From assembly GCF_014170335.1 (NCBI RefSeq), contig NZ_LZZS01000033.1, forward strand, positions 62,001-126,000: a DNA stretch of 64,000 nt. The letters are read 5' to 3'. Within the stretch, counting starts at the first letter, position 1, and each line of letters begins with the position of its first letter. A program made the translations under genes and the position numbers. Source of the stretch: Achromobacter sp. UMC46 (GTDB lineage: Bacteria; Pseudomonadota; Gammaproteobacteria; Burkholderiales; Burkholderiaceae_B). The notes beneath the pieces are model-generated. The model made no database searches and was not told where the DNA came from. It was given only the letters and a program-made list of their open reading frames with translations. This document shows positions 3,590 through 12,405 of this stretch, piece after piece.

Positions 3590-4171
3590 CTAGGCTTTGC
3601 CCAGCCATTGGCTCATTTCGACGACCTCCCGGGCGACCTCGCCCAAGCGCTTCTGGCTCTGCATGGCGCGTTCGCGCAACAGGCGGTGCGCTTCGTCCTC
3701 GGGGATGGCGCGCGCCTTCATCAGGATCCCCTTGGCCTTTTCCACCCACTGGCGGTCGGCCAGGCGCATTTGCGCCTCGCGCAGTTCTTCGCGCCGCGAC
3801 TTCTCCATGGCGAAGCGTTCGATCGCCACCGTCAGCAACGGTTCGATGCGGGCGGCCGGCACGTCGCCCACCACGTAGGCCGCGACGCCGGCTCGCAGCG
3901 CGGTGCGGATGGTGTCGCGGTTGCCGTTGTCGGTGAACATCACAACCGGGCGGTCGCTGTGCTCGCTGGCCACGCAGACGTTTTCCAGTGTGTCGCGCCC
4001 GGGGGCGTCGCTGTCGATCAACACCACGTCGGGCGCTGCCTGCGCGATGGCGGCGGCCAGGTCCATGCCCGGCGCCACTTCCGACACGATGCGCACGCCC
4101 GCCGCAGCAAGCGTCTGCCGCAGCGACGCCGCGCGCCCTTCGCCATCGTTCAGCAACATCACCTTGAGCAT
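3590..4171 (-). CDS. nasT: NasT-like ANTAR-domain antiterminator (nitrate/nitrite response regulator)
   Basis: A 193-residue two-domain RNA-binding regulator. Residues 1-125 form a receiver-like domain that looks degenerate: the acidic pair is replaced by LLNDGEG, although LIDSDAPG (Asp53, Asp55) remains. Residues 130-190 are an ANTAR domain (RLADRQWVEKAKGILMK ... DEAHRLLRERAM). Known NasT/NasR proteins bind paired hairpins in nas leaders and prevent termination. A matching leader lies just across the divergent gap at 4437-4548. The ATG at 4169-4171 gives the canonical MLKVMLLND start; a longer in-frame extension exists but has no support. No nasS gene, the usual sensor partner, is present in the window. 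Confidence 0.9.
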   Translation of the reverse strand: MLKVMLLNDGEGRAASLRQTLAAAGVRIVSEVAPGMDLAAAIAQAAPDVVLIDSDAPGRDTLENVCVASEHSDRPVVMFTDNGNRDTIRTALRAGVAAYVVGDVPAARIEPLLTVAIERFAMEKSRREELREAQMRLADRQWVEKAKGILMKARAIPEDEAHRLLRERAMQSQKRLGEVAREVVEMSQWLGKA

Positions 4172-4264: not shown

Positions 4265-4312
4265 GCACAGGCATGGTGCGCCGCCGCATCGACGCATGCA
4301 CCAACTTGGTTC
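4265..4312 (+). promoter_or_regulatory. tandem NtrC-like enhancer sites
   Basis: Two sequences match the NtrC consensus GCACCA-N3-TGGTGC: GCACAG-GCA-TGGTGC at 4265-4279 and GCACCA-ACT-TGGTTC at 4298-4312. Their centres are 33 bases apart, about three helical turns, which places dimers on the same face as in classical glnA enhancers. They lie about 130 and 165 bases before the start predicted from the sigma-54 promoter at 4411. This suggests nitrogen-limitation control of the operon. Confidence 0.7.
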
Positions 4313-4410: not shown

Positions 4411-4426
4411 TGGCACGATGCTTGCT
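4411..4426 (+). promoter_or_regulatory. sigma-54 promoter of the nitrate assimilation operon
   Basis: TGGCACG-ATGC-TTGCT matches the -24/-12 consensus TGGCACR-N4-TTGCW at every conserved base. GG and GC are separated by exactly 10 bases. The predicted transcription start, about 12 bases after the GC, falls near 4437, just where the first leader hairpin begins. Confidence 0.85.
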
Positions 4427-4436
4427 TAAGAGGTAA

Positions 4437-4501
4437 CGGGGACCAACGGCGGTCGCCCGATGCAACGCGCCGCAATTCGCGGCAAGGAACAACGACGTTC
4501 C
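4437..4501 (+). promoter_or_regulatory. two-hairpin ANTAR recognition element (NasT binding site in leader RNA)
   Basis: Hairpin 1 (4437-4459) pairs CGGGGACC with GGTCGCCCG (one bulged G) around the six-base loop AACGGC (4445-4450). Hairpin 2 (4486-4501) pairs GGAAC with GTTCC around loop AACGAC (4491-4496). Both loops have A at position 1 and G at position 4, the published ANTAR target rule. The 3' arm of hairpin 2 is also the 5' arm of the terminator, so the two structures exclude each other. Binding by NasT would favour hairpin 2 and readthrough. Confidence 0.85.
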
Positions 4502-4548
4502 GCAGCGCCAATGGACTGGGTTCCATGGCGCGCGGGACGTTTTTTTTT
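4495..4548 (+). terminator. intrinsic terminator/attenuator in the nas leader
   Basis: ACGTTCCGC (4495-4503) pairs with GCGGGACGT (4532-4540). GCGCCA pairs with TGGCGC and TGGA with TCCA inside, with single bulged As at 4504 and 4511 and a CTGGGT-type loop. Nine Ts follow (4540-4548). It lies just before the nrtA ribosome-binding site, so it would stop transcription unless the overlapping ANTAR hairpin 2 forms. Confidence 0.92.
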
Positions 4549-4562
4549 GCCAGGAGCCATGC

Positions 4563-5864
4563 ATGACGCCAGTGACACGTAGCCCCTCTGCCCGCCCCGC
4601 CGCCGGCGCGGACCAGACCGCCGACGCCGGCCGCCGCAAATGGTTGAGCGGAACGGCGCGCGCCGTGGCGGGCGCCAGCCTGTTGTCGCTGGTCGATCCG
4701 CTGGTGCGCGCAGGCGCCTGGGCGGCGGGCACCGACGCGCCAGAGAAGACCGAGGTGAAGATCGGCTTCATCCCGCTGACGGATTGCGCGTCGGTCGTGA
4801 TGGCCTCGGTGCTGGGCATCGACAAGAAGCATGGGGTGACGATCACGCCGTCGAAGGAGGCCTCGTGGGCGGCGGTGCGCGACAAGCTCATGAACGGCGA
4901 GCTGGACATGGCGCACGTGCTGTACGGGCTGGTCTACGGCGTGCACCTGGGCGTCGGCGGGCCAAAGAAGGACATGGCCGTTCTGATGAACCTGAACCAG
5001 AACGGCCAGGCGATCACGCTGTCGAACAAGCTGCTGCAGGCCGGCGCGCGCGACGGCGAATCGCTGGCGAAGCTGATGGCGGCCGACAAGCGCGAATACA
5101 CCTTTGCGCAAACCTTCCCGACCGGCACGCACGCCATGTGGCTGTATTACTGGCTGGCGGCCTACGGTATCAACCCGATGAAGGACGCCAAGGTCATCAC
5201 GGTGCCGCCGCCCCAGATGGTGGCGAACATGCGTGTGGGCAACATGGACGGCTTCTGCGTGGGCGAACCCTGGGGGGCGCGCGCCATCATGGACAAGATC
5301 GGCTACACCGCCGTGACCACGCAAGGCATCTGGCAGGACCACCCTGAAAAGGTGCTGGGCACCAGCGCGGAATTCGTGTCGCGCCATCCGAACACGGCGC
5401 GCGCCGTTACCGCGGCCATCCTTGAGGCCGGGAAATGGATCGACGCGTCGCCGGCCAACCGCCAGAAGACGGCTGAAACCATCGCCGCCAAATCCTATGT
5501 CAACACGGACGCCAGCGGCATCGTGGACCGCATGCAGGGCCGCTACGACGACGGCTTGGGCAAGTCGTGGACCGACGCGCACGCGATGCGCTTCTATGCC
5601 GACGGCGCAGCCAACTTCCCGTATCTGAGCGACGGCATGTGGTTCCTGACGCAGCACAAGCGCTGGGGCCTGTTGAAAGAGCATCCCGACTATCTGGCGG
5701 TGGCCACGCAGATCAACCGCATCGAACTCTACAAGCAGGCCGCGTCGGCCGCTGGCGTGGCGTTGCCCGCCAGCGAGACGCGCCGCTCGACGTTGATCGA
5801 CGGCGTGGCGTGGGACGGCAGCAACCCCGCGGCTTATGCCGACGGGTTCAAGGTCAAGGCCTGA
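4563..5864 (+). CDS. nrtA: nitrate ABC transporter substrate-binding protein (NrtA/NasF family)
   Basis: The periplasmic nitrate receptor of the transporter encoded by the next two genes, 433 residues. The N-terminus carries a twin-arginine motif, GRRKWLSG (Arg24-Arg25), followed by a hydrophobic stretch, suggesting Tat export. The mature domain begins near KIGFIPLTDCASVVMASVLG, the NrtA/CmpA/NasS fold, and includes GNMDGFCVGEPWGARA. It is the first gene after the attenuated leader, with AGGAG six bases before the ATG. NasS sensors share this fold but usually lack an export signal; the Tat-like start favours a transport role. Confidence 0.9.
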   Translation: MTPVTRSPSARPAAGADQTADAGRRKWLSGTARAVAGASLLSLVDPLVRAGAWAAGTDAPEKTEVKIGFIPLTDCASVVMASVLGIDKKHGVTITPSKEASWAAVRDKLMNGELDMAHVLYGLVYGVHLGVGGPKKDMAVLMNLNQNGQAITLSNKLLQAGARDGESLAKLMAADKREYTFAQTFPTGTHAMWLYYWLAAYGINPMKDAKVITVPPPQMVANMRVGNMDGFCVGEPWGARAIMDKIGYTAVTTQGIWQDHPEKVLGTSAEFVSRHPNTARAVTAAILEAGKWIDASPANRQKTAETIAAKSYVNTDASGIVDRMQGRYDDGLGKSWTDAHAMRFYADGAANFPYLSDGMWFLTQHKRWGLLKEHPDYLAVATQINRIELYKQAASAAGVALPASETRRSTLIDGVAWDGSNPAAYADGFKVKA

Positions 5865-5893
5865 GCGCCGACACGGAAATAAAGGGGCATGCA

Positions 5894-6724
5894 ATGTCTA
5901 CCGTAACGAATGTGGGTCGCGCCGACGCGATATTCGCCGCCGGGCGCGAGAGGCTGGAATCGGTACTGAAGGCCTTGGCGGGCCCGGTGGCCGGTTTCGC
6001 GCTGTTCGTGCTGGTGTGGCAGGTGGTGGCCATGCGTATTCCGGAGATCCCGACGCCGGGCGTCACCTGGCATGCAGCCGTGGAATTGTTTTCGGATCCA
6101 TTCTATGACAACGGCCCCAACGACAAGGGAATCGGTTGGAACCTGCTGGCGTCGCTGGAACGCGTGGCGATCGGCTTCGGGCTGGCCGCGGTGATCGGCA
6201 TCCCGGTCGGGTTCGCCATCGGCCGGTACGCCGCGATCAACGCCATGTTCTCGCCCATCGTGAGTCTGCTGAGGCCAGTGTCGCCGCTGGCCTGGCTGCC
6301 GCTGGGGCTGCTGCTTTTCAAGGCGGCCAACCCGGCCGCGATCTGGGCCATCTTCATCTGTTCGATCTGGCCGATGATCATCAACACCGCAGTGGGCGTG
6401 TCGCGCGTGCCGCAGGACTACCTGAACGTGGCGCGGGTGCTGAACCTGTCGGAATGGAAGGTCACGACCAAGGTGCTGCTGCCGGCGGTGCTGCCTTACA
6501 TGCTGACCGGGGTGCGCCTGTCCATCGGCACGGCGTGGCTGGTGATCGTGGCGGCCGAAATGCTGACCGGCGGCACGGGCATCGGCTTTTGGCTGTGGGA
6601 CGAGTGGAACAACCTGAAGGTCGAGCACATCGTCATCGCCATCTTCGTGATCGGCATCGTGGGGCTGCTGCTGGAAACCCTGCTGGTCGCGCTGGCCCGC
6701 CGATTCACCTACACCGAGGAATAG
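5894..6724 (+). CDS. nrtB: nitrate ABC transporter permease
   Basis: Inner-membrane permease of the nitrate ABC transporter, 276 residues with about six hydrophobic segments. The cytoplasmic coupling loop is seen around EWKVTTKVLLPAVLPYMLTG (near residues 195-215), the EAA-type motif of this family. The ATG at 5894 follows AAAGGGG and gives MSTVTNVG; the frame is open further upstream but overlaps nrtA and is not supported. It begins 29 bases after nrtA and ends 4 bases before the ATPase gene. Confidence 0.9.
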   Translation: MSTVTNVGRADAIFAAGRERLESVLKALAGPVAGFALFVLVWQVVAMRIPEIPTPGVTWHAAVELFSDPFYDNGPNDKGIGWNLLASLERVAIGFGLAAVIGIPVGFAIGRYAAINAMFSPIVSLLRPVSPLAWLPLGLLLFKAANPAAIWAIFICSIWPMIINTAVGVSRVPQDYLNVARVLNLSEWKVTTKVLLPAVLPYMLTGVRLSIGTAWLVIVAAEMLTGGTGIGFWLWDEWNNLKVEHIVIAIFVIGIVGLLLETLLVALARRFTYTEE

Positions 6725-6728
6725 CGCC

Positions 6729-7619
6729 ATGAAGAAATTCGTACGCATCGAACGCGTGGGCCAGACGTTCACCACCCGCAAAGGCGCTTTCGTGGCGCTG
6801 CGCGACATCGACCTGACGGTGGACCAAGGCGAGTTCATCACGCTGATCGGCCATTCGGGTTGCGGCAAGTCCACCTTGTTGAACCTGATCGCCGGGCTGA
6901 CGCGTCCGACCAGCGGCGTGCTGCTTTGCGCCGAACGCGAAATCACCGGCCCGGGACCGGACCGGGCGGTCGTGTTCCAGAACCATTCGCTGCTGCCGTG
7001 GCTGACCTGCTTCCAGAACGTGTACCTGGCCGTCGAGCGCGTCTTCGGAGGCAAGGAAAAGCGTCCGCAACTGGCCGAGCGCACGCGCGCCGCGCTGGAG
7101 CTGGTGGGGTTGCTGCCGGCGCAGAACAAGCTGCCGCGCGAGATCTCCGGCGGCATGAAGCAGCGCGTGGGCATTGCCCGGGCGCTGGCGATCGAACCGG
7201 GCGTGCTGCTGATGGACGAGCCGTTCGGCGCGTTGGACGCGTTGACGCGGGCGCATCTGCAGGACGAATTGCTGAAGATCGTGGCCAAGACCCGCACCAC
7301 GGCCATCATGGTCACGCATGACGTGGACGAGGCCGTGCTGCTGTCCGACCGCATCGTCATGCTGACCAACGGTCCGGCCGCGACCATCGGCGAGATCCTG
7401 CCCGTGCCGCTGGCGCGTCCGCGCGATCGCGTGCGGTTGACCAATGACGCCACCTATCTGGAATGCCGCGCGTCAGTGGTGGATTTCCTGCACCGCCGCC
7501 ACGGCAATCCCGAGCGCTCGCAGGCGGCGGCGCAGGCCAATGCGGTCCTGGACGCGACCGGTTCGGAGAGGGAGGTCGAGAGCGAGGCTGCGGCCGTCGC
7601 GACCCGCGCCGTGGCCTGA
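6729..7619 (+). CDS. nrtC: nitrate ABC transporter ATP-binding protein
   Basis: Cytoplasmic ATPase driving nitrate import, 296 residues. It shows Walker A GHSGCGKST (about residues 43-51), signature SGGMKQR, Walker B LLMDEPFGALD and the switch His in MVTHDVDEA. The C-terminal 40 residues are acidic and alanine-rich and look like a non-conserved extension. There is no second receptor-like domain of the kind fused to cyanobacterial NrtC, so this corresponds to the short NrtD/NasD-type ATPase. It lies 4 bases after nrtB and 21 bases before the flavoprotein. Confidence 0.9.
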   Translation: MKKFVRIERVGQTFTTRKGAFVALRDIDLTVDQGEFITLIGHSGCGKSTLLNLIAGLTRPTSGVLLCAEREITGPGPDRAVVFQNHSLLPWLTCFQNVYLAVERVFGGKEKRPQLAERTRAALELVGLLPAQNKLPREISGGMKQRVGIARALAIEPGVLLMDEPFGALDALTRAHLQDELLKIVAKTRTTAIMVTHDVDEAVLLSDRIVMLTNGPAATIGEILPVPLARPRDRVRLTNDATYLECRASVVDFLHRRHGNPERSQAAAQANAVLDATGSEREVESEAAAVATRAVA

Positions 7620-7640: not shown

Positions 7641-8861
7641 ATGGGCACGAAGCAGAAACTGGTGGTGGTGGGCAACGGCATGGCGGGCATCCGCACGGTG
7701 GAGGAACTGCTGGCGCTGGCGCCCGACCTGTACGACATCACGGTGTTCGGCGCCGAGCCCCACACTAACTACAACCGGATCCTGCTGTCGCCGGTGCTGA
7801 CCGGCGAACGGACGCTGCAGGATATCGTGCTGAACGACGAGGATTGGTATGCCCGCTACGGCATACGGCTGTTGCGCAACCGCAAGGTGACGCGGGTGGA
7901 CCGCCTGCGCCGCGTCGCGCAGGCCGATGACGGCACCGAAGCGCCTTATGACCGGCTGCTGCTGGCCACCGGCTCGAACCCGTTCATCCTGCCCGTGCCG
8001 GGCAACGATCTGGACGGCGTGGTCGCCTTTCGCGATATCGGCGATGTGAACCGGATGATCGAAGCGTCGTCGCGCTATCGCCACGCCGTGGTGGTCGGCG
8101 GCGGCCTGCTGGGCCTGGAGGCCGCCAACGGATTGGCCGCGCGCGGCATGGACGTGTCGGTCGTGCATCTGGGCCACGCGCTGCTGGACCGCCAGTTGGA
8201 CGGCGAGGCCTCCGCGATGTTGCAGAAGAGCCTGGAGGCGCGCGGCCTGACATTCCTGCTGGGACGCCAGACGCAGGCGATCCTGGCGGGCGACGACGGG
8301 CGGGTGCGCGCGCTGCGCTTTGCCGATGGCCAGGAGATTCCGGCGGACCTGGTGGTGATGGCCGCGGGCGTGCGTCCCAACACGGAACTGGCCGAACGCT
8401 GCGGGCTGCATGTGGACCGGGGCGTGGTGGTGACCGATACCTTGCAGACTTACGATCCGCGCATCTATGCGGTCGGCGAATGCGTCAGCCATCGCGGCAC
8501 GGCCTACGGGCTGGTCGCGCCCTTGTTCGAACAGGCCAAGGTGGCGGCCAACCATCTGGCCCTGCATGGCATCGGCCGCTACGAGGGCAGCGTGACCTCG
8601 GCCAAATTGAAGGTCACCGGCATCGATCTGTTTTCAGCCGGGGACTTCGCGGGCGGCGGGCAAGCGGAGAGCATCACGTTGTGCGACGCGCTGGACGGCG
8701 TCTACAAGAAGCTGGTGATTCGTGGCAATAAGCTGGTGGGCGTCTGCCTGTACGGCGACACGGCGGACGGCGCCTGGTATATGCGGCTGATCCGGGACGG
8801 GCAGGAAATCGGCGCCCTGCGGGACCGCTTGATGGCAGGCGAAAGTCTGGCGGGGGGATAG
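7641..8861 (+). CDS. NAD(P)H-dependent FAD oxidoreductase of nitrate reduction (NasC/NirB N-terminal type)
   Basis: A 406-residue flavoprotein of the pyridine nucleotide-disulfide oxidoreductase fold. The FAD-binding motif VVVGNGMAGIRTVEEL is at residues 8-23, LLLATGSNPF near 100-112, the NAD-binding VVVGGGLLGLEAANGL near 150-165, and a second FAD site IYAVGECVSHRG near 275. It matches the first 400 residues of NirB, including VTGIDLFSAGDF, but stops before the siroheme/[4Fe-4S] part. It is therefore a diaphorase, not a nitrite reductase. Lying 4 bases before nasA, it most likely passes electrons from NAD(P)H to NasA. Confidence 0.85.
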   Translation: MGTKQKLVVVGNGMAGIRTVEELLALAPDLYDITVFGAEPHTNYNRILLSPVLTGERTLQDIVLNDEDWYARYGIRLLRNRKVTRVDRLRRVAQADDGTEAPYDRLLLATGSNPFILPVPGNDLDGVVAFRDIGDVNRMIEASSRYRHAVVVGGGLLGLEAANGLAARGMDVSVVHLGHALLDRQLDGEASAMLQKSLEARGLTFLLGRQTQAILAGDDGRVRALRFADGQEIPADLVVMAAGVRPNTELAERCGLHVDRGVVVTDTLQTYDPRIYAVGECVSHRGTAYGLVAPLFEQAKVAANHLALHGIGRYEGSVTSAKLKVTGIDLFSAGDFAGGGQAESITLCDALDGVYKKLVIRGNKLVGVCLYGDTADGAWYMRLIRDGQEIGALRDRLMAGESLAGG

Positions 8862-8865
8862 GCGG

Positions 8866-11658
8866 ATGAACATGCCGTCAATCGCGCGGATTCCCATCGC
8901 CGACGTGAGCGAAGGGCGCGCCGTGGCGTCGGTGTGCTGTTATTGTGGCACGGGCTGCGGCGTACGCGTCCACGTGCGGGATGGCGCCGTGCTGCGCGTC
9001 GAGGGCGACCCGACGCATCCCGCCAACCACGGAAAGCTGTGCAGCAAGGGGTTGGCGCTGGGCGACACGGTACGCCGCGACGGCGCGCGCGTACTGTCGG
9101 CGCAATGGCGCGAGGCGCGCGGCCAGCCGATGCGGGACATCGGGCTGGGGCAGGCGCTGGATATCGCGGCCGAGACGCTGGCCCGCGTGATCCGGTCGCA
9201 TGGCCCCGACGCGGTGGGTTTCTACCTGTCGGGCCAGTTGCTGACCGAGGACTACGCCGTCTTCAACAAGCTGGCGCGTGCGCTGGCCGGCACCAACAAT
9301 ATCGACACCAATTCCCGCCTGTGCATGTCCAGCGCGGTGTCGGGCTACAAGCGCACGCTGGGCGCGGACGCGCCGCCCGCCTGCTATGAAGACCTGGAAC
9401 TGGCGGATACCGTGCTGATCGCCGGCTCCAACATGGCTTACGCGCACCCCGTGCTGTTCCGCCGCCTGGAGGCGGCGCGGGCGCGCCGCCCGGGCATGAA
9501 GGTGATCGCGGTGGACCCCCGGCGCACGGACACGGCCGCGTTCGCGGACCTGCATCTGGCGATCGCGCCGGGCACCGACGTGGCCCTGTTTCTCGCCATA
9601 CTGCATGTCATGGTGCGCGAAGGCCTGATCGACACCGACTACATCCAACGCCACACCGAAGGCTTCGAGGCGTTGCGGGCGCGCGTGGACGCGTATCCGC
9701 CGCAAGCGGCGCAGCGCATTTGCGGCGTGCCCGCGCAGGACATCATCCAGGCGGCCCGCTGGTTCGGCGGCGCGCAGGCGGCGCTGTCCCTGTACACGAT
9801 GGGGCTGAACCAGTCCACCAGCGGCACCGACAAGAACGCCGCGTTGATCCATCTGCATCTGGCGACGGGCCAGATCGGCAAGCCGGGCGCGGGCCCGTTT
9901 TCCCTGACGGGCCAGCCCAATGCGATGGGCGGCCGCGAGGCCGGTGGCATGGCCACCTTGCTGCCGGGCCATCGGGACCCGGGAAGTGCCTTGGACCGCG
10001 CCGACGTGGCCGCGCTGTGGGGCGTGGACAAGTTGCCCGACGCGCCGGGCACGACGGCGCTGGACATGTTCGACGCCGTCCTGGAAGGGCACATCAAGGT
10101 GCTGTGGATCGCGGCAACCAACCCCGCGCAGTCGCTGCCGGACCAGGCGCGCGTGCGCGCAGCGCTTGCGCGCGCCGAATGCGTCATCGTGCAAGAGGCG
10201 TTCGCGGGCACCGAGACGCTGGCCTATGCCGACCTGGTGCTGCCCGCCGCGACGTGGCCGGAGAAGTCCGGCACGGTGACAAATTCCGAACGCCGCGTGA
10301 GCCGCGTGCAGGCAGCCATCACGCCGCCCGGCGACGCGCAGCCGGATTGGCGGCTGGCGCAGGCGGTGGCGCAGCGGCTGGCCGCCCGCATCGCGCCGGA
10401 CAAGGCGGCGCGGTTCGCGTATGGCGATGAAAGCGAGGTGTTCGCGGAACACGCCCGCATGACCGCGGGGCGCGATCTGGACTACAGCGCGTTGGACTAC
10501 GGCGTCCTGGGCCGCGACGGGCCGCAGCAATGGCCTTACCGCGCGGGGCGCGGCACGGCGCGGCTGTACGCCGATGGTGTGTTCCCCACGCCCAGCGGCC
10601 GCGCCCGCTTTTGCGACGTGGACTATCGGCCGCCGGCCGACGAAGTGACGTCCGAATTCCCGCTGCGGCTGACGACGGGCCGCCTGCGCGACCATTGGCA
10701 CACGATGGCGCGCACGGCGCTTGCCGGCGCATTGACGCAGCATGTCGAAGAGCCGTGGGTGTCGATGCATCCGGACGATATGCGCCGGCTGAAACTGGAA
10801 GCGGGCGCGCTTGCGCGGCTGCGTTCTCGACGCGGCAGCGTCGTGCTGCCGGTGCGCGAAGACGACGGCATGCAGCCCGGGCAGGCCTTTCTGCCCATGC
10901 ATTGGGGCAGCGCTTTCATGGCGGGCCTGGGCGTCAATGCGTTGACGAGTCCGGCGACCGACCCGGTGTCGCGTCAGCCCGAGCTGAAGTTCAGTGCCAT
11001 TTCCGCCGAGCCCGCCGGCTTGGCGTGGCAGGCGGCGGGGTGGCTGCAAGGCGATGGCGCGGCCCTGCGCGCGCGCCTCGCGCCATGGCTGCGCCGATTC
11101 GATTACGCGGTGGTGCTGCCCGTCGGCGCCGGCGGGGTGCGGATCCGCCTGGCAACCGATGCCTTGCCGGGGCCGGCGCTTCTGGCCGAGTTGGCGGACG
11201 CGCTCGGCCTGGGCCGTGCCGATGTGGTGTTCGATGATCCCGCGCAGGGCAGGATGCGCCGGGTGGCGGTGGAGCAGGGCGCGTTGCGCGCCTTTCTGCT
11301 GGCCGGCGACTTGCGCGCGCAGGACGCGCTGCTGTCCTGGGCGGCAGGTGCGGCGGCGCCCGCCAGCGTATCCGCCTTGCTGACGGGGCGGGAGGCAGGG
11401 GCCGCAAGGTCGCGCACCGTCTGCGTCTGCAATGGCGTCAGCGAGGCGGCCATCATGGTGGGCATCGGGCGCGGTTGCGACGTGGCGGCGCTGAAATCCA
11501 CGCTGGGCTGCGGCACGGGCTGCGGTTCCTGCGTGCCGGAAATCCAATCGTTGGTCGCCCGGATACCGGCCGCCGCGGTCACGAACGGACATGCGCTGGG
11601 CACGGCAACCGGTGTAGTATCAAGCCAGCCGTCGCGGGTAGCGGGCGGCGTTTTCTGA
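8866..11658 (+). CDS. nasA: assimilatory nitrate reductase catalytic subunit with C-terminal [2Fe-2S] BFD-like domain
   Basis: Cytoplasmic molybdopterin enzyme reducing nitrate to nitrite, 930 residues. The N-terminal [4Fe-4S] motif has Cys24, Cys27, Cys31 and Cys59. The molybdopterin oxidoreductase body follows (SGQLLTEDYAVFNKLARAL, GLNQSTSGTDKNAALIHLHL), then the dinucleotide-binding domain near 650-760. The last 90 residues contain CVCNGVSEAAI and GCGTGCGSC, a BFD-like [2Fe-2S] domain seen in Klebsiella-type NasA and in NirB. It is the last gene of the nrtABC-flavoprotein-nasA operon; no nitrite reductase follows. Confidence 0.95.
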   Translation: MNMPSIARIPIADVSEGRAVASVCCYCGTGCGVRVHVRDGAVLRVEGDPTHPANHGKLCSKGLALGDTVRRDGARVLSAQWREARGQPMRDIGLGQALDIAAETLARVIRSHGPDAVGFYLSGQLLTEDYAVFNKLARALAGTNNIDTNSRLCMSSAVSGYKRTLGADAPPACYEDLELADTVLIAGSNMAYAHPVLFRRLEAARARRPGMKVIAVDPRRTDTAAFADLHLAIAPGTDVALFLAILHVMVREGLIDTDYIQRHTEGFEALRARVDAYPPQAAQRICGVPAQDIIQAARWFGGAQAALSLYTMGLNQSTSGTDKNAALIHLHLATGQIGKPGAGPFSLTGQPNAMGGREAGGMATLLPGHRDPGSALDRADVAALWGVDKLPDAPGTTALDMFDAVLEGHIKVLWIAATNPAQSLPDQARVRAALARAECVIVQEAFAGTETLAYADLVLPAATWPEKSGTVTNSERRVSRVQAAITPPGDAQPDWRLAQAVAQRLAARIAPDKAARFAYGDESEVFAEHARMTAGRDLDYSALDYGVLGRDGPQQWPYRAGRGTARLYADGVFPTPSGRARFCDVDYRPPADEVTSEFPLRLTTGRLRDHWHTMARTALAGALTQHVEEPWVSMHPDDMRRLKLEAGALARLRSRRGSVVLPVREDDGMQPGQAFLPMHWGSAFMAGLGVNALTSPATDPVSRQPELKFSAISAEPAGLAWQAAGWLQGDGAALRARLAPWLRRFDYAVVLPVGAGGVRIRLATDALPGPALLAELADALGLGRADVVFDDPAQGRMRRVAVEQGALRAFLLAGDLRAQDALLSWAAGAAAPASVSALLTGREAGAARSRTVCVCNGVSEAAIMVGIGRGCDVAALKSTLGCGTGCGSCVPEIQSLVARIPAAAVTNGHALGTATGVVSSQPSRVAGGVF

Positions 11659-11673: not shown

Positions 11674-12405
11674 GTGACGATGCGAAAAATGGCATCCCTG
11701 ATTTTGGCGGCTGGCGCGTTGGGCGCGGCCGCTTCGGCGCAGGCTGGCGTGTGCGATGCGCAATTCATGCATGACGGCGGCGCGGTGCAATTGACCGGTT
11801 CGGGCAATCTGTCGCTGGGTGCTGACCTGACCTTCGCCGAAGTTACAAAAAGCAATGGCGACAACTGCCGCGCGCGCGTGCAGGGCGTGGCCACCTTCGG
11901 CTACGCCGGTTTGCCGCCCGGGAAATCCAAACTGGACTACCTGATGACGGTGAAGGGCGGCCAGGCCACCTTCCTGAAATACGCCAGCGCGGGCGAAGCC
12001 CCGAAGCCTTCCGAAGGCCAGTTCGACTTGCGCATGCTGGGCCTGTTCGCCTACGACGGCAAGCTCAATGCCGGCCAGAAATTGCCCGGTTCGTCGTTCC
12101 GCTTGAAGATCGGCAAGGAGGCGCCGGTGGGCGGTCAGCCCAGCACCACAGTGCGCATCGGCGAGAAGTCCGTGGGCCAGAAGACGCCGCTGAAAACCGC
12201 ACTGGGCCAGCAGTCCTGCCATCCCATCACGTATTCGCGCAATTCCGATCCTACGATGGCCACCTTCCAGGGCCTGACGATTCCGATTCCCGGCATGAAC
12301 ACGACGGTCACCGACTGGTACTGCCCGGCGGTGAATCTGGTGATGAAGCAGGACATCGATCAGGGCGGCGTGAAGTCAGCCGTTGAAATTACGCAGATCA
12401 AGTAG
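11674..12405 (+). CDS. secreted protein of unknown function
   Basis: I do not recognise this family. The 243-residue product starts with a classical signal peptide (MTMRKMASLILAAGALGAAASAQA, probable cleavage after AQA), so the mature protein should be periplasmic or secreted. The mature part is rich in Gly, Lys and Thr and contains four Cys (in GVCDAQF, DNCRARV, QQSCHPI and DWYCPAV), which could form two disulfides. The GTG at 11674 lies six bases after GGAG; an ATG six bases further is a possible alternative. It starts 15 bases after nasA and may be read through from that operon, but nothing links it to nitrate. Confidence 0.75.
   Translation: MTMRKMASLILAAGALGAAASAQAGVCDAQFMHDGGAVQLTGSGNLSLGADLTFAEVTKSNGDNCRARVQGVATFGYAGLPPGKSKLDYLMTVKGGQATFLKYASAGEAPKPSEGQFDLRMLGLFAYDGKLNAGQKLPGSSFRLKIGKEAPVGGQPSTTVRIGEKSVGQKTPLKTALGQQSCHPITYSRNSDPTMATFQGLTIPIPGMNTTVTDWYCPAVNLVMKQDIDQGGVKSAVEITQIK

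Follow-up and report, generated by a model that had tools for sequence, protein, structure and literature searches.

The leader of the nitrate-assimilation operon of Achromobacter sp. UMC46 raises the question of how two ANTAR-type RNA hairpins could act together as an antiterminator when they stand 26 nt apart, beside a nasT-like gene for which no NasS gene is found. Two-hairpin ANTAR leaders, those of nas operons among them, are already known (excerpts of PMC3369931, PMC7496416, PMC5424462 and PMC3795266). Our analysis of the 64,000-nucleotide stretch of DNA that holds this operon (the window) leads us to think it likely, from the sequence, that the leader is a doubly controlled ANTAR antiterminator of the NasT type, in which a linker hairpin would serve as spacer. 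An earlier note on this DNA had already proposed the antiterminator; what goes beyond it is the linker hairpin, the promoter of sigma-54 type and the finding of no NasS gene. The leader is made up of the following elements:

4437-4459, + strand: P1, the first ANTAR hairpin, CGGGGACC-AACGGC-GGTC-g-CCCG, with one bulged G at 4455
4469-4483, + strand: linker hairpin GCCGC-AATTC-GCGGC, with a non-ANTAR loop, from the predicted fold and the Achromobacter alignment
4486-4501, + strand: P2, the second ANTAR hairpin and predicted antiterminator, GGAAC-AACGAC-GTTCC
4495-4548, + strand: intrinsic terminator with arms at 4495-4509 and 4527-4540 and nine Ts at 4540-4548

The P1 loop AACGGC, the P2 loop AACGAC and the nine Ts all lie at the positions that the earlier note had given for them. 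Both hairpins have stems of at least 3 bp and hexaloops with A at position 1 and G at position 4, as expected of an ANTAR RNA. The bulged G of P1 is, in the Achromobacter alignment, the trace of a small deletion common to two leaders (L185 and L187). The 3' arm of P2 (4497-4501) is contained in the 5' arm of the terminator, and the mutually exclusive folds that had been claimed on this ground are borne out by folding. When transcripts were grown from 4437 in 3-base steps, with the polymerase footprint ignored, the minimum structure contained P2 at transcript ends 4501 to 4537, and at 4540 the terminator took over. The structure prediction with and without P2 enforced, which had been suggested as a check, favours the terminator form by 7.4 kcal/mol over 4437-4547. 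The region 4430-4560 as a whole has a minimum free energy of -62.3 kcal/mol, a value as low as which was found in 0/200 shuffles. Two AA-hexaloop hairpins, the second lying over a terminator, occur once in the 64-kb window and in none of 40 dinucleotide shuffles. Rfam gave no match at gathering score anywhere in the window, and a simple terminator scan of the window did not list the 4495-4548 terminator; the presumable reason is the single-base bulges in its stem. We dropped a 3-bp closing stem that was predicted to enclose the linker hairpin and P2, since it is broken in some Achromobacter leaders.

Three sites upstream point to the way in which this transcript could begin. They were scored against what we take to be the consensus for sigma-54 and for NtrC sites:

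4265-4279, + strand: NtrC-like site 1, GCACAGGCATGGTGC, with two mismatches to the presumed consensus
4298-4312, + strand: NtrC-like site 2, GCACCAACTTGGTTC, with one mismatch
4411-4425, + strand: sigma-54-type (-24/-12) promoter, TGGCACGATGCTTGC, with a predicted +1 at about 4437

The pattern TGGCAC-N5-TTGCT was matched in 20/20 Achromobacter loci given to a script that required it and dropped none, and all five columns of the promoter spacer vary among the 17 distinct Achromobacter leaders. A transcription start downstream of the hairpins, which had been named as telling against the antiterminator, is not what this promoter predicts: by its spacing the +1 would coincide roughly with the first base of P1, at 4437. 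An NtrC-like site with at most three mismatches stands upstream of the promoter in 33/33 loci, some of which represent one genome twice. The sigma-54/NtrC promoter is recognised by sequence only, and its NtrC part is weak against shuffles, such a site arising also in 45/300 shuffles of the window's upstream region.

The genes downstream of the leader are those expected of nitrate uptake and reduction, and a regulatory gene faces them on the other strand:

3590-4171, - strand: nasT-like gene, receiver plus ANTAR, divergent from the operon (Pfam ANTAR 2.9e-16, Response_reg 7.7e-9)
4563-5864, + strand: nrtA, nitrate-binding protein, with a Tat-like RRKWL signal by eye (Pfam NMT1_2 1.9e-104)
5567-6724, + strand: frame holding nrtB (permease), its true start probably internal, taken from the ORF list and assigned by position and reading
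6729-7619, + strand: nrtC/D, nitrate ABC transporter ATPase (TIGR01184 6.2e-100, above cut-off)
7641-8861, + strand: NirB-like FAD/NAD(P)H oxidoreductase (TIGR02374 on its N-terminal half, under the curated cut-off)
8866-11658, + strand: nasA-like assimilatory nitrate reductase (molybdopterin oxidoreductase plus BFD-like Fe2S2, with the NasA/NasC models under their cut-offs)

An ORF directly after nasA (11674-12405) has no Pfam or NCBIfam match. The start of nasT (4171) lies 266 bases from P1 (4437), the distance at which a divergent NasT-like ANTAR protein had been claimed, and its receiver and ANTAR domains are found by Pfam beside nitrate-assimilation genes. NasT-type antitermination fits the locus, with a divergent REC-ANTAR gene on one side of the leader and the nrtABC/nasA operon on the other. 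The nearest solved structures to this NasT by sequence are EutV (6wsh, E 9.9e-17) and Rv1626 (1s8n, 6.6e-15), and the nearest relatives among named genomes, in A. sp. Bel and A. pestifer, are 98% identical. Read against what we take to be the receiver motif, Asp53 is kept, Gly102 stands in the usual place of Lys, and Asn8-Asp9 in that of the two acidic residues. Phosphorylation of NasT appears unlikely because Gly102 replaces the usual Lys. Pfam finds no NIT domain in the window protein, and its model PF08376 matched neither the own genome nor any control genome. The second ANTAR gene of the own genome was rejected as the cognate regulator, as it reads as AmiR beside AmiC. At that locus (L002, C3:116867-120025) AmiC-like and AmiR-like genes are followed, by reading, by an MlrC/M81-like peptidase gene with no amidase, and no dual hairpin was found within the 3 kb examined.

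Conservation of the hexaloops and stems in related genomes, the lack of which the earlier note had named as a ground for giving up its claim, was followed through relatives of NasT. A search of 200 genomes of the family at a cut-off of E 1e-20 found one in 37 of them, the own genome included; within the same genus seven genomes have one (own counted) and four are listed without. The dual hairpin stands near nasT in 20/30 loci from the family search, the window locus counted. The other ten are L028, L030, L036 (which has P1 only) and L038-L044; in the last group nasT is followed by a NasS-like gene, and the dual hairpin was sought near nasT only. At L028 and L030 the gene after nasT, on the same strand, is NrtA/NasS-like; it shares 47-49% identity with the window NrtA, and no dual hairpin was found upstream of it. 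L036 (from G141, of the same family as the window) lacks an nrtA between nasT and the divergent NirB-like gene, and in its leader the sigma-54-type site and P1 are kept and neither P2 nor a terminator is seen.

Nineteen distinct family leaders, with L027 left out, entered the covariation test. Among them 93.9% of cells in the P1/P2 stems are paired, six pairs are altered on both sides (as high in 1/500 shuffles), and the covariation score was reached by 0/500 shuffles; the hairpins are thus not only kept in related genomes but covary. Further pair types were not above shuffles (as high in 495/500), and pairing was lost when the stem partners were slid by 1-3 columns. A covariance model (R2) was built from 12 leaders, all from outside the window's genus because circularity was to be avoided. 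With this model the window scores E=1.5e-9 at 4431-4505, as against 0.18 for the next match, and on 24 loci it recovers all 12 from Achromobacter at 3e-6 or better and the other 12 at 0.052 or better. A second model, R1, with the window among its sequences, matched the window at 2.0e-13 in the own genome, and when used there to look for further NasT targets gave no other match better than E 0.19; there were eight weaker matches, of which L046-L049 were checked for the motif and had none. An order-wide search with the RNA model matched at least 16/399 genomes, with 12 candidates per genome scored, and was not used for presence or absence.

The feature that sets this leader apart is the distance between its hairpins. 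The gap between P1 and P2 is 26 nt by the folded stems (28 by automatic stem ends), of which the linker hairpin folds away 15, leaving 11 nt single-stranded. The short linkers of other ANTAR RNAs measure 5-12 nt in eut and 2-25 nt in actinobacteria, so that the gap lies outside these ranges as it stands and comes to 11 nt once the hairpin is folded. We did not use the long linker to exclude the window because the linker is defined as variable in the excerpt of Ramesh 2012 used here (PMC3369931). The same excerpt gives 5-12 nt for the eut linkers of E. faecalis and a sharply reduced induction with 14 nt, and in an excerpt of Walshe 2022 (PMC8934654) the addition of 20 nt to a eut leader abolished antitermination in vitro.

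Within Achromobacter, the ten stem columns of the linker hairpin are unchanged and all five loop columns variable throughout the 17 distinct leaders, and the linker stem was absent from the pattern by which these leaders were selected. A stem without variation offers no covariation within the genus. Elsewhere it is retained with other letters, as GCTGC/GCAGC in Verticiella, GCCGAC/GTCGGC in Bordetella genomosp. 7 and GGCCGCC/GGCGGCC in Bordetella genomosp. 2, the compensated changes thus lying between genera only and in hand-aligned stems. It could be that P1 and P2 alone matter and that a GC-rich sequence has given rise to the linker hairpin as a by-product, an explanation that we regard as unlikely. 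Taken by itself, the window linker is within chance under dinucleotide shuffling (p 0.18-0.21, against 0.02-0.03 with mononucleotide shuffles) and is not individually significant; jointly, the six clusters that resemble it most come to only 0.013. Linkers of 2-25 nt being accepted in actinobacteria, length alone may also be tolerated. An invariant stem beneath a variable loop argues against a by-product, and so does the behaviour of other long linkers.

Leaders for this comparison were sought in loci from overlapping searches of 200, 399, 399 and 398 genomes, from 60 further stretches and from 37 named loci. The resulting 199 sources (198 loci and the window, with some genomes present twice, and L054-L067 coming from the order-wide search) were scanned for leaders that combine a loose sigma-54 site with two hexaloops, the second of them over a terminator. 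Since the scan required the sigma-54 site, the promoter is present in every scanned leader by construction. Leaders were obtained from 119/199 sources; 100 are distinct, and they form 55 clusters by a similarity cut-off, which is not true independence. The linker is at most 14 nt long in 20/55 clusters and at least 16 nt in 35/55. L026 and L029, counted among the 20, are artefacts in which the automatic P1 stem swallowed the middle hairpin, and were moved by hand to the spacer class.

Taken together, the 35 long-linker clusters are more stably folded than their dinucleotide shuffles (Fisher 1.1e-16), and this holds both for the 14 with a middle hexaloop (2.6e-11) and for the 21 without a strict one (1.2e-7, with 8/21 below 0.05 alone). 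Three of these 21 (L128, L174 and L184) retain an A1/G4 hexaloop whose stem is broken or short or whose closing pair is different; the 18 clusters left when such ANTAR-like loops are dropped still give a Fisher value of about 4e-6. A third hairpin with the ANTAR signature, taken as a C-G closed hexaloop with A1, G4 and at least 4 bp, was found in 14/35 long linkers, whereas 2000 mononucleotide-shuffled sets had 0.15 on average and never more than 2, and L133 was excluded from this class by one mismatch. On the side of the by-product explanation are at least two long linkers, L149 and L183, with no predicted hairpin in either.

Some nas leaders downstream of sigma-54-type sites have three ANTAR-type hexaloop hairpins in a row ahead of a single terminator; they are those of L073, L076, L082, L086 and L088, as well as L092, L094, L095, L126, L131 and others. 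The Achromobacter linker hairpin occupies the place that a third NasT-type hexaloop hairpin holds in related leaders. The three leader types were mapped on a quickly built tree of 97 NasT rows, all selected because a leader lies close by. They require 24 changes there, as opposed to 42.8 with shuffled labels, and they mix within clades: L134 and L136 (hexaloops AACGAA and AACGAG) adjoin L128, whose hexaloop has a broken stem, as well as L093 and L168, with other loops. The middle hairpin seems to switch between docking site and plain spacer, and in the Achromobacter leaders it is plain; any direction given to this switching is our inference, since gains and losses cannot be told apart on the NasT tree.

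The linker hairpin might instead be a transcription pause signal that allows NasT to load on P1 while P2 and the terminator have yet to emerge, an idea that we consider rather improbable. The hairpin does enter the minimum fold from 4483, shortly before P2 is made (polymerase footprint ignored), and a hairpin stands at the equivalent place in many related leaders, but variation is seen in its loop and at one of the two positions that follow the stem. We think that its main job is more likely to keep the two docking sites at a working distance.

What would tell NasT of the presence of nitrate is a separate matter. In Paracoccus, NasS is a relative of NrtA that has no signal peptide and frees NasT upon binding nitrate (excerpt of PMC3795266). 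The ORF list of the window contains no NasS gene beside nasT. A NasS-like query from another order retrieved the window NrtA (54%), a second NrtA-like protein (36%) and a distant one (28%) from the own genome, all three with a twin-arginine-like N-terminus by eye. No signal-less NasS was found in the own genome by this query or among the best 3 of 15 PF13379 matches, which were read; the other 12 score 102 bits or less. The second NrtA-like gene (L004, C4:508277-511996), with a Tat-like N-terminus, stands with an nrtB-like gene behind a gene reading as a LuxR-type response regulator. A NasS-type gene adjoins nasT, by a distance rule, in 18/97 rows of the tree, themselves chosen for a leader nearby. 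The finding of no NasS sensor by these searches, along with a receiver that, by the motif we assume, does not have the canonical phosphorylation residues, would suit a plain attenuation in which the neighbouring protein makes no use of the ANTAR-like hairpins and NtrC/sigma-54 alone controls the operon, a view that we hold to be very unlikely, as both hexaloops and their stems are kept over a terminator in very different leaders beside nasT.

Substrates of the Tat pathway take on their fold while still in the cytoplasm. The window NrtA is 54% identical to a signal-less NasS-like protein from another order of the class, whose gene adjoins nasT, and in a quickly built tree the clade of the window NrtA is close to that of this NasS. 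As a tentative idea, to which we give little credence at present, the Tat-type NrtA of this Burkholderiales lineage may double as the missing NasS, newly made, nitrate-free NrtA trapping NasT before export and nitrate releasing it. If this were true, NrtA as sensor would close a feedback loop between nitrate uptake and antitermination.

Returning to the NasT-type antiterminator with its spacer hairpin, we propose the following sequence of events. Under nitrogen limitation, NtrC and sigma-54 would begin the nas transcript at about 4437. Without the intervention of NasT, the folding energies predict that the terminator forms as the polymerase reaches the T tract. Active NasT, by homology and by the anatomy of the leader, would bind the hexaloops of P1 and P2 and bar the 3' arm of P2 from the terminator, and with this arm kept free nrtABC-nasA would be transcribed. 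The linker hairpin would meanwhile hold P1 and P2 at a working distance despite a 26-nt gap that is beyond the functional eut spacings.

This arrangement touches on the question of whether an ANTAR dimer grips the two hairpins simultaneously or passes from P1 to P2; the part of Walshe 2022 consulted (PMC8934654) proposes such a hand-off and a strict limit on the spacing. Leaders bridged by a plain hairpin or by a third hexaloop, forms that sometimes both occur among close relatives, offer a direct test of spacing, hand-off and stoichiometry. Our results also suggest that nas leaders will be overlooked or misinterpreted in searches for ANTAR RNAs with short linkers, and that nasT can occur where nasS is lacking.

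The earlier note had likened the leader to those on which Klebsiella NasR and the NasT proteins of Azotobacter and Paracoccus act, and the REC-ANTAR gene, the hairpins and the nitrate operon all fit; the NasS half of NasS-NasT is the part that was not found. Like the NasS-NasT systems of Paracoccus denitrificans, Azotobacter and Pseudomonas, in the excerpts of PMC3795266 and PMC5424462, the locus combines a REC-ANTAR protein, hairpins before nitrate-assimilation genes and Ntr input, the latter on the Achromobacter side by promoter sequence. Unlike them, the Achromobacter leader has a linker hairpin and no NasS gene was found; short linkers were seen in seven leaders from presumed Pseudomonas relatives. 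With the Klebsiella nasF leader and NasR it shares two hexaloop hairpins preferring A1 and G4 and a terminator before nitrate genes (excerpt of PMC7496416), whereas NasR carries a nitrate-sensing NIT domain and the Achromobacter protein is REC-ANTAR. EutV and the eutP leader resemble it in the hexaloop rules, in mutual exclusion and in providing the closest solved structure of the protein; the linkers of E. faecalis eut are 5-12 nt long in the excerpts of PMC3369931 and PMC8934654, as opposed to 26 nt with a folded hairpin in Achromobacter. We recognised no description of three-hairpin or spacer-hairpin ANTAR leaders in those parts of the open literature that we drew on, and an earlier mention elsewhere is possible. 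The Achromobacter leader is of a known kind, with a new architecture.
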